This document shows positions 4,041-45,545 of a stretch of 57,357 nucleotides of DNA, piece by piece. The notes under the pieces were generated by a model. The model was not told the origin of the DNA. It did no database searches and saw only the letters and a list, made by a program, of their open reading frames with translations. Both the position numbers and the translations under genes were made by a program. How positions within the stretch are numbered: position 1 is the first letter of the stretch; each line of letters starts with the position of its first letter. Location of the stretch: the NCBI GenBank assembly GCA_034439735.1, contig JAWXAX010000061.1, positions 1 through 57,357 on the forward strand, read 5' to 3'. The DNA comes from Rhodothermales bacterium (lineage in GTDB: Bacteria; Bacteroidota; Rhodothermia; Rhodothermales; JAHQVL01).

Positions 4041-4080
4041 CACTTTTCACTTTTCACTTTTCACTTTCCACTTTCTCACT
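4041..4080. repeat. Heptamer tandem repeat (CACTTTT)n at a gene 3' end
   Basis: Three near-perfect copies of CACTTTT are followed by degenerate copies that run into the stop codon of the MetE-like gene (TCA at 4076-4078, read as TGA on the minus strand). This is one of several heptamer-type tracts in the window located exactly at coding boundaries. Confidence 0.8.
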
Positions 4081-5068
4081 TCCCCTCAAACAAATCTCTT
4101 CCTTTCACCAGCGCCCGCATCTTCGCGTCGGCGATGGAGCGTTTGAGCATCCAGAAGCCGCAGTCGGGGTGGACGTACCGGATGCGCTCCACGCCGGCGG
4201 CCTTCGCGGCGGCTTCGATCCGCCGGGCGACGAGTTCGGGGGTCTCGACGACGGTGGTTTTGATGTCGATCACGCCGATTCCGAGGCCGATTTCGGGGCG
4301 GATGTCGCGGAGATGCTGGAGTTCAGACTCGCCGCGAAAGGCGAATTCGAGCACCATGTGGTCGGTGCGCAGGCGGTTGATGTAGGCGATGAGGGTCTCC
4401 CAGTGACCCTTTTGAATCGACTGACCGCCGTAATTCCCGAAGCACAGGTGCACAGCCGGCTTCGTAGGGATGGCATCCAGCATGACATTCAGCGCGCTCG
4501 CGGCCCACTCGGCCTCCTCGGGGGAGCCGGTGATGTTGGCTTCGTCGAGCTGGACGATATCGGCGTCGATCTCGCGGAGCTGCGCGGCGAGTACCCCGGC
4601 GAGGGCGTGGGCCAGCTCGGGGACGTCGGCGTACTGCCGATCGAGCAGGGTCTTCGCCAGCATGTGCGGGCCGGTGACGGTGAACTTGAGCGGCGCCGTC
4701 GTCAGCCGGCGGACGCGCCGGTAGTCGTCCACCAGGTTCAGCATCCCCTCGCCCAGCGGGCCCTCGACGACAGCGGCCGGCCGGGTCCGGAAGCCCATCC
4801 CCTTGATCTTCCGAAAATCCTCCACATCCCGCCGCGTCACCCGGCTGCGGATGCCCTCCAGCGGGTTGACGAAGTACTCGATCATCCCGTTCGTCTCGGG
4901 GTGGTTGATGTCGAACCGGTACAACTCGCCGTCGGCGACGACGTCGATGCCGGCGAGCTCCTGCGTTTTGAGCACGACGCTGGTGGCGTCTTCAAGCGCC
5001 TGCCGGCTCGGGGCGGCCACGAGCCAGTCGAGGATGGGGTAACTGCCGACGACGGTGGTTTGGATCAC
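4076..5068 (-). CDS. MetE C-terminal-like (cobalamin-independent) methyltransferase
   Basis: A 330-residue TIM-barrel protein similar to the catalytic half of cobalamin-independent methionine synthase and related UROD/MetE-like enzymes. The start reads MIQTTVVGSYP, the typical TT-VGSYPR beginning of the stand-alone form. Likely zinc ligands are the His and Cys in HLCFGNY, a Glu in LEFAFRGE and the Cys in HPDCGFW; VQLDEANI matches the family's IDEP strand region. Stand-alone proteins of about 330-380 residues transfer methyl groups to thiols, but whether this one makes methionine or uses another methylated substrate cannot be decided. It is the last gene of a minus-strand group after the sugar permeases, 205 bases away with a palindromic element between, so co-transcription is doubtful. 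Its stop codon lies inside a heptamer repeat. Confidence 0.85.
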   Translation of the reverse strand: MIQTTVVGSYPILDWLVAAPSRQALEDATSVVLKTQELAGIDVVADGELYRFDINHPETNGMIEYFVNPLEGIRSRVTRRDVEDFRKIKGMGFRTRPAAVVEGPLGEGMLNLVDDYRRVRRLTTAPLKFTVTGPHMLAKTLLDRQYADVPELAHALAGVLAAQLREIDADIVQLDEANITGSPEEAEWAASALNVMLDAIPTKPAVHLCFGNYGGQSIQKGHWETLIAYINRLRTDHMVLEFAFRGESELQHLRDIRPEIGLGIGVIDIKTTVVETPELVARRIEAAAKAAGVERIRYVHPDCGFWMLKRSIADAKMRALVKGRDLFEGK

Positions 5069-41334: not shown

Positions 41335-42664
41335 TCTCCCGATCGATCAGCACCGGGCCGTTATACCGACCCTCCTTCGGCCCATTCTCCAGCTTCAACA
41401 CCCCGCGCGGACACACCGCCGCGCACACCCCGCAGCCCACACACGACGACCGGATGATGTTCTGCCCGCGCTGGGCGTACCAGCGAACGTCAATCCCCAT
41501 CTCGCAATACGTCGAGCAATTCCCACACGAAATGCACTGACCGCCATTCGTCGTGATCCGGAAGCGCGAATAAAACTTCTGGATCATCCCCAGCACCGCC
41601 GCCATCGGGCATCCAAAGCGGCACCATACGCGGTTGCCCATGATCGGGTAAAAGCCGGTGCCGACGACGCCGGAGAAAATCAACCCGATATAAAACCCGT
41701 ACCACGACGAAAACAGTCCCGACAGACTCCCGAACACGGCGCCCTCCGTGGCCGAATTGATCCAGAGCGCCGCCGTCGTGAGCACCACAAACACCAGCAC
41801 GCCGTGGATCAGCCACCGCTCGATCTGCCAGGCTTTAAGCGACTTATCGGACAACTGCCGAAACGGATCGCCCAGCGTCTCGGCCAGCCCGCCACACCCG
41901 CACACCCACGAACAGTACCACCGCTTCCCGAAGAAATACGTCAGGATGGGCGTGGCGATAAAGATCATCACGGCGCCCCAGAACACCATGAACACCCCGA
42001 GCGACCCCGAGCCCGAGAGCCAGTCGACGGTGCCGGGCCAGAGGTAATCGTATTTGAGGGGCCAGAAATAGGAGAAGTAGAACTCCGGCTGGTTAAACAT
42101 CACCAGCAACGACGGCAGCAAAAACGCGAACCCGAGTTGGAAAAACATCACCGAGATCGTCCGCAAGATCTGGTACCGGCTGTGGCGGTACTTGAAGAGC
42201 ATCCGAACGCCCATGACGAGCACGGCCATCGTATAAAACGTCCCATACATAAACCACTTATCCGCCGGCACCCCCTTGAGCGCCAGGCTCAGCGGGCTAA
42301 AAATGGGGATCAGATTCGCCAGCCAGGCCTCCTGCCAGTAGAGGATGCAGTAGAACCCGGTGAAGACGATGCCGAGCGTCCACCCCACGATGCCTTTCAT
42401 CCCGGTGGTGACAGCGTTCTGCCAGATCCCGTCGTTATTGATCCCCGCCGGCCGCTTCAGATACCGCCAGAAATACAGGAACCCGCCGCCTGAAATCCCG
42501 ACCAGACCAACCAGAAACACCAGCAACGGCTGCCCGAGGTCGCCGGCAAACAACGCGACGATCCAGGCCAGCACTCCGATGCCGATGAGCGCCATCCCGG
42601 CCTTTTCGACGCCGTCGAAGTGGGATCCGGGGCGGGTGAGTTGGAAGCTGACGTCGTGGGACAT
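41312..42664 (-). CDS. NapH/CcoG-like membrane polyferredoxin
   Basis: A 450-residue inner-membrane iron-sulfur protein. It has about eight helices (for example GMALIGIGVLAWIVALFAG, LLVFLVGLVGISGGGFLYFW, VFMVFWGAVMIFIATPILTYFFG). Cytoplasmic cysteine motifs typical of NosR/NapH are CSWVCGCGG and CRFGCPMA at the ends of helices, and the C-terminus has two [4Fe-4S] sets: CISCGNCSTYCEMG and CVGCGVCAAVCPRG. It probably moves electrons between a cytoplasmic donor and a membrane or periplasmic acceptor. The FAD oxidoreductase gene directly upstream is a plausible donor. I do not see nitrous-oxide or nitrate genes nearby, so the physiological partner is unknown. A heptamer repeat lies just before the start. 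Confidence 0.9.
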   Translation of the reverse strand: MSHDVSFQLTRPGSHFDGVEKAGMALIGIGVLAWIVALFAGDLGQPLLVFLVGLVGISGGGFLYFWRYLKRPAGINNDGIWQNAVTTGMKGIVGWTLGIVFTGFYCILYWQEAWLANLIPIFSPLSLALKGVPADKWFMYGTFYTMAVLVMGVRMLFKYRHSRYQILRTISVMFFQLGFAFLLPSLLVMFNQPEFYFSYFWPLKYDYLWPGTVDWLSGSGSLGVFMVFWGAVMIFIATPILTYFFGKRWYCSWVCGCGGLAETLGDPFRQLSDKSLKAWQIERWLIHGVLVFVVLTTAALWINSATEGAVFGSLSGLFSSWYGFYIGLIFSGVVGTGFYPIMGNRVWCRFGCPMAAVLGMIQKFYSRFRITTNGGQCISCGNCSTYCEMGIDVRWYAQRGQNIIRSSCVGCGVCAAVCPRGVLKLENGPKEGRYNGPVLIDRESVSILPD

Positions 42665-42763
42665 AGGGTAAAAGGTAAAAGGTAAAAGGTAAAAGGGAAT
42701 TCGCTAATCGATTAATCGCTAATCGCTAATCGATTAATCGCTAATCGATTCATCGCTAATCGC
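42665..42763. repeat. Two heptamer-type tandem repeats: (GGTAAAA)n and (CTAATCG)n
   Basis: Bases 42665-42697 hold four GGTAAAA units. Bases 42702-42763 hold about eight 7- or 8-base CTAATCG/ATTAATCG units. The second tract overlaps the 3' end and stop codon of the FAD oxidoreductase gene, and the first abuts the start of the polyferredoxin gene. The two genes are therefore separated almost only by repeat. Confidence 0.9.
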
Positions 42764-45219: not shown

Positions 45220-45545
45220 AGAACTAAAGGAATTACTAAAAGTTTGTGGGGCGGCCCAAAAGGGCGGTGGCGCGGGGTGGCTTGGAGCGGGATAGGACCT
45301 TCAAAAAGGCTGAGGCGAAGGTTTTTGAAGTGCTATGAGGGCGTGGCGCGAGGGGATTGGACTAATGGTTTTCCTAAAAGTCCGCGTAGAGCAACCAGTC
45401 GATGCCGGATCTGCCCCACTGTCAAGGTCCACGAGTATTCCCCAGTTAGGGCCAGGAGTGTTCCCCACCCCGGGGCCACGAGTATTCCCCACCCTTTTGG
45501 CGTGAAGCCAACTGAACCGCCCCACGTTTGTCGGAGACTAGGTTA
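45220..45545. other. Non-coding debris between tRNA-Phe and IS5 element
   Basis: A 326-base stretch with no convincing gene. It contains the three GGCCACGAGTATTCCCCA-type repeats at 45426-45494. An open frame at 45244-45546 lacks protein character and simply ends at the IS boundary. Confidence 0.6.
45426..45494. repeat. Three direct repeats like an IS21-family end
   Basis: Units of about 20 bases, GGTCCACGAGTATTCCCCA, GGGCCAGGAGTGTTCCCCA and GGGCCACGAGTATTCCCCA, are spaced 23 bases apart. Multiple 20-bp repeats containing TGGGGAATACTCGTGGCC on the other strand are typical of IS21-family termini. No istA/istB genes are present, so this would be an orphan end. Family assignment is from memory of such ends. 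Confidence 0.5.

Follow-up and report, generated by a model that had tools for sequence, protein, structure and literature searches.

Intergenic heptamer arrays and the repeat-encoded C-terminus of an FAD-dependent oxidoreductase in a Rhodothermales bacterium

Described heptamer repeats and the arrays of this genome

The GGGNATC heptamers of Xanthomonas and Nostoc are distributed genome-wide in intergenic regions and form G-quadruplexes (Rehm 2015, PMC4692102). They lie less than 50 bp from open reading frames (ORFs); upstream repeats are on the non-coding strand and downstream ones on the coding strand. They occur singly or as inverted pairs, and some of them overlap stop codons. The TAACTGA direct repeats occur in Beggiatoaceae, Cyanobacteria, and some Bacteroidetes, in intergenic regions and mostly beside start codons. 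Their orientation is fixed, with 147 of 170 sets directed at a start codon and 12 at a stop codon, and they encode protein ends outside functional domains, for instance in MurG (MacGregor 2015, PMC4679880).

The Rhodothermales genome analyzed here contains intergenic heptamers of this kind, that is, tandem arrays of a 7-nt unit, found at many loci, adjacent to ORFs and on a fixed strand. The genome, the only one of its species in the comparison, is a metagenome-style draft assembly of 304 contigs; the array survey covers roughly one quarter to one third of it. In 80 contigs picked by number (1.08 Mb of unselected sequence), we found 18 perfect period-7 arrays of at least 20 nt, compared with none in a first-order Markov simulation, and therefore the arrays are not due to chance. 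The same census yielded no arrays with periods 4 to 6 and one or two for each period from 8 to 11. The units are AAAAGTG, AAAAGGG, AAAAGGT, AAAAGGC, AAAAAGG, and GCGATTA; TAACTGA does not occur as a period-7 unit in this sample. Arrays were also observed at or near several contig ends, in contigs C19, C87, C185, and C240 and in the loci L285 (8286-8380), L235 (1-20), L160 (9107-9126), and L302 (173-206). It is probable that such arrays interrupted the assembly; the longest of them may be missing, and copy numbers may be collapsed.

The units appear to be specific to this species. Three tandem copies of GCGATTA occur in 1 of 245 genomes of the class, namely this one, and the CTAATCG array is absent from the other 244 class members. 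Three copies of AAAAGGT were found in 1 of 40 genomes, again this one, and GGTAAAA has 24 overlapping matches genome-wide; neither CTAATCG nor GGTAAAA, the two units of the junction described below, was found in any of the 39 relatives. Reading the pattern backwards is not a valid control for CTAATCG and AAAAGTG, since the reversals are rotations of the same units.

Like the GGGNATC repeats, the arrays have a 7-nt unit, are genome-wide, intergenic, and adjacent to ORFs, have the same polarity, occur singly or in inverted pairs, and in some cases overlap stop codons. Unlike them, GCGATTA, AAAAGTG, and GGTAAAA lack GGG, and among the main units of the genome only AAAAGGG contains it. With the TAACTGA repeats they share the intergenic location, the fixed orientation, and the repeat-encoded protein ends, but several units coexist in this genome, arrays at stops are no rarer than arrays at starts, and in one case a conserved 35-residue tail has been replaced. 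Thus the repeat type is already known, and the outward rule is extended here to units without G-runs.

The oxidoreductase junction and its replaced C-terminus

The window, that is, the whole analyzed stretch of 57,357 nucleotides, contains a gene for an FAD/NAD(P)-dependent oxidoreductase of 427 amino acids (P0001, 42712-43995, minus strand). The protein belongs to the Pyr_redox_2 family (Pfam PF07992, E=5e-43; 147.9 bits against a curated cut-off of 26.1) and has about 100 homologues, collected from loci of relatives and of GTDB genomes. Its C-terminus reads EANFDPEF-APRLAMNRLAINRLAISD, the translated end being EFAPRLAMNRLAINRLAISD, and the stop codon is at 42712-42714. A CTAATCG/ATTAATCG tract supplies the 16 C-terminal residues together with the stop. 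The first-pass annotation had placed the last codons and the stop in the CTAATCG tract, and its coordinates and peptide proved exact by TRF and translation.

On the sense strand, this tract is GCGATTA/CGATTAAT (42701-42763, minus strand; TRF repeats at 42701-42747 and 42720-42762), a (GCGATTA)n heptamer tract with 8-nt variant units that spans the last codons and the stop and continues for about 11 nt past it, to 42701. Over 42701-42762, TRF reports a 100% match for period 22 and 96% for period 15. In the coding part, the 15-nt units (7+8) stay in frame and thus produce the pentapeptide RLAIN or RLAMN; the repeat-derived C-terminus, RLAMNRLAINRLAISD (42715-42762, minus strand), consists of these units followed by pure heptamer. 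The pure heptamer is limited to the last part of the tract, the stop falls in the first purely heptameric stretch, and only about two units are perfect.

The RLAxN tail is present in none of the approximately 100 homologues, in agreement with the earlier view of the tail as artificial. The expectation that homologues would end before the tail failed in the alignment: most of them instead carry a conserved C-terminus of their own. In two relatives from the same family (about 66% identity) and in most Bacteroidota homologues, the FDPEF motif is followed by about 35 residues with the shared pattern F..YE..I...YN.QNP.....K.KRGL...F, and this segment is gone from P0001. In several lineages of Rhodothermales, the FDPEF position is followed by 12-16 unrelated residues. 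In the AlphaFold model of one homologue (L066), the tail segment opens with a confident helix (residues 408-425, pLDDT 83-88); in that of P0001, this helix is absent and pLDDT drops from 67 to 45 across residues 401-427. Judging from these alignments, the tail is a replacement of the conserved extension of about 35 residues rather than an addition, and it is probably disordered. As the terminal segment is lost in P0001 and other Rhodothermales have short unrelated tails, it seems to be dispensable, and the new tail is most likely neutral.

The remainder of the gap is filled by a second heptamer, as had also been noted: the GGTAAAA array (4.3 copies, 42667-42696, plus strand; TRF 100% match) reaches to within 2 nt of the downstream gene (P0002, 41312-42664, minus strand; ATG at 42664) and reads away from it. 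This gene encodes a membrane 4Fe-4S protein of 450 amino acids, which is called NapH/MauN-like only, as it scores below the curated NapH cut-offs. Its N-terminus (MSHDVSFQLT) matches those encoded by the homologous downstream genes, and thus the start is real. Two arrays, one of the GCGATTA type and one of GGTAAAA, therefore converge at the oxidoreductase/NapH-like junction, whose flanking genes keep the order seen at homologous junctions of many other genomes. Elsewhere in the same window (45429-45494), there is a 24-bp tandem repeat with 2.8 copies, CCACGAGTATTCCCCACCCCGGGG, whose period is unrelated to the heptamers.

A similar layout was found at the homologous junction of an Armatimonadetes MAG (L111). 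In the same gene pair, a TCAGTGG/TCAGTAG-type array lies over the stop (the protein ends in GSQWSVVSGQ), and a second array, of CTCCATT, converges with it before the next ATG; however, the units are different and just the last 10 or so residues are affected. At another homologous junction (L047, 2880-3000, genome G022), the post-stop spacer is GGTTCGAGGTGGTGGGTTCGGGG and the pre-start spacer CCTCGAACCTATAACCTCCAACC, which are degenerate, GGTTCGA-like, and converging in layout. A GGTTCGA-type array family in G022 was considered and rejected, as no three-copy GGTTCGA array was found in this genome or in two relatives, and 333 kb contained few period-7 arrays. The Rhodothermales genome itself has a diverged paralogue with 68% identity (L141, G000:C52:8001-18000; oxidoreductase part C52:11525-12436), in which the first 305 or so oxidoreductase residues are fused in frame to the NapH-like C-terminal 4Fe-4S part and the whole junction is deleted. 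It may represent either a genuine fusion or a copy in decay.

Outward polarity of the arrays

The P0001 tract is one among dozens of period-7 arrays in the genome. Polarity was defined as the direction of the purine-rich strand of the unit, for arrays no more than 60 nt from an ORF boundary, with ORFs called by our own dicodon caller; the loci were chosen partly by unit pattern and never by orientation. In 74 of 86 arrays, the purine-rich strand points away from the ORF (p=5e-12), with no difference between starts (30 of 35) and stops (44 of 51); the count becomes 75 of 86 after reassignment of the junction's own array. For instance, a CACTTTT array in the window (5.7 copies, 4041-4081, minus strand), located 8 nt past the stop of a minus-strand gene, has the outward polarity and belongs to the same population. 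At least one of the remaining exceptions (L152, 2358) results from a mis-called start, the array being located immediately upstream of what is probably the true ATG of an aldolase gene. When gene calls were not used, opposed neighbouring arrays formed 20 converging pairs and no diverging ones. Measured from the ORF on their purine-5' side, the arrays have a median position of 7% of the gap (KS p=3e-25) and a median distance of 6 nt.

Some arrays enter the genes themselves, as 16 of 76 outward arrays overlap their ORF. The GCGATTA arrays supply protein ends in ISD in two genes, including P0001, and in TSD in a third one, and the AAAAGTG arrays supply ends in SEK. Homologues of an ABC transporter (L291) and of the aldolase (L152) align nearly to the end, so that no more than a few terminal residues are replaced by the arrays. 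By this comparison, the 35-residue replacement in P0001 is the extreme case among the genes checked.

As the polarity holds for units without GGG runs, G-quadruplex formation is not needed for it. Stop-codon content was rejected as a cause too: the outward strands of GCGATTA, AAAAGGT, and AAAAGTG have stops in all frames, but those of AAAAGGG and AAAAGGC have none, and the explanation fails for polarity at starts. No degeneracy gradient marking a growing end was found, the in-phase match being 0.43 versus 0.42 on the two sides of the arrays (p=0.6).

Origin of the tail and alternative readings

We consider it likely that the P0001 tail is a by-product of the genome-wide, species-specific intergenic heptamer arrays, which crowd ORF ends and overwrite dispensable tails. 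The arrays would spread, or be retained, directionally until they meet a sequence under selection. The terminal residues of P0001, about 35 in number, would have been dispensable and could thus have been replaced by GCGATTA/15-nt units, which supplied a new stop.

A selected regulatory or mRNA element, either as sites for a translational regulator or as an intercistronic hairpin controlling the relative amounts of the two proteins (cf. MacGregor on TAACTGA), would agree with the location of the arrays next to ORF boundaries, start codons included, and with the folding of the junction. The palindromic 8-nt variant units are predicted to form a strong hairpin in the transcript (42705-42750, minus strand; RNA fold z=-3.95 for the junction) that covers the P0001 stop codon. 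However, most pure heptamer arrays lack such a hairpin, and most other GCGATTA arrays have folding z-scores near 0, that is, no folding excess; an element of the REP/BIME type was ruled out as a general explanation on the same grounds. Further, the junction has no Rfam match, terminator, or promoter, upstream of starts the sense strand is rich in pyrimidines, the opposite of a Shine-Dalgarno sequence, and no single role at the RNA level explains one polarity at both stops and starts in any gene orientation. We find a selected element rather unlikely as the explanation; the P0001 junction itself may have a regulatory or hairpin role, but this is not general to the arrays.

The C-terminus had also been proposed to be phase-variable or neutral. 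Neutrality is the part that we retain. In a contingency locus, slippage of the heptamers would act as a switch on the tail, on the stop, or on translation of the NapH-like gene. Indeed, the unit length is not a multiple of three, and the loss of one heptamer in silico opens the frame to 517 amino acids, with a 230-nt overlap with P0002, as there are no stops on the CCTTTTA strand; a change in the GGTAAAA copy number would also shift the spacing ahead of the P0002 ATG. However, the addition of one to eight heptamers leaves the P0001 protein identical and only lengthens the spacer, since that frame meets its stop already in the first unit; in (GCGATTA)n, every frame has a stop. Two lost heptamers shorten the tail by two residues, and one 15-nt unit more or less adds or removes five residues with the frame kept. 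Besides, the approximately two perfect units are a poor substrate for slippage, both genes are metabolic rather than surface-related, and phase variation was deemed unlikely for comparable heptamers (Rehm 2015, PMC4692102). The junction does not look designed as an on/off switch, although the state with one heptamer lost deserves notice, and phase variation, a quite improbable reading, is not supported; copy-number change would mostly alter the spacer length or add in-frame pentapeptides.

That the tail and its array are a mis-joined repeat, an artefact of assembly or binning that the arrays at contig ends might suggest, is highly improbable given the conserved order of the flanking genes, the length of the tract (about 65 nt, spannable by ordinary reads), and the many independent arrays that follow one polarity.

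To return to the heptamer arrays as the source of the tail, a broader and distinctly doubtful proposal is that one directional process, such as 3'-end extension or one-sided copying of the purine-rich strand, generates the period-7 arrays of unrelated bacteria and runs outward from a selected sequence or is stopped by it. If true, it would explain both the common unit length and polarity of unrelated heptamers and the independent filling of the same junction in Rhodothermales and Armatimonadetes.

The genome separates two explanations of the polarity, as quadruplex formation cannot be its general cause, and the independence of the polarity from the direction of transcription points to an origin at the DNA level. 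In the case of P0001, non-coding heptamers are seen turning into protein, at a dispensable C-terminus and with a stop supplied by the repeat.
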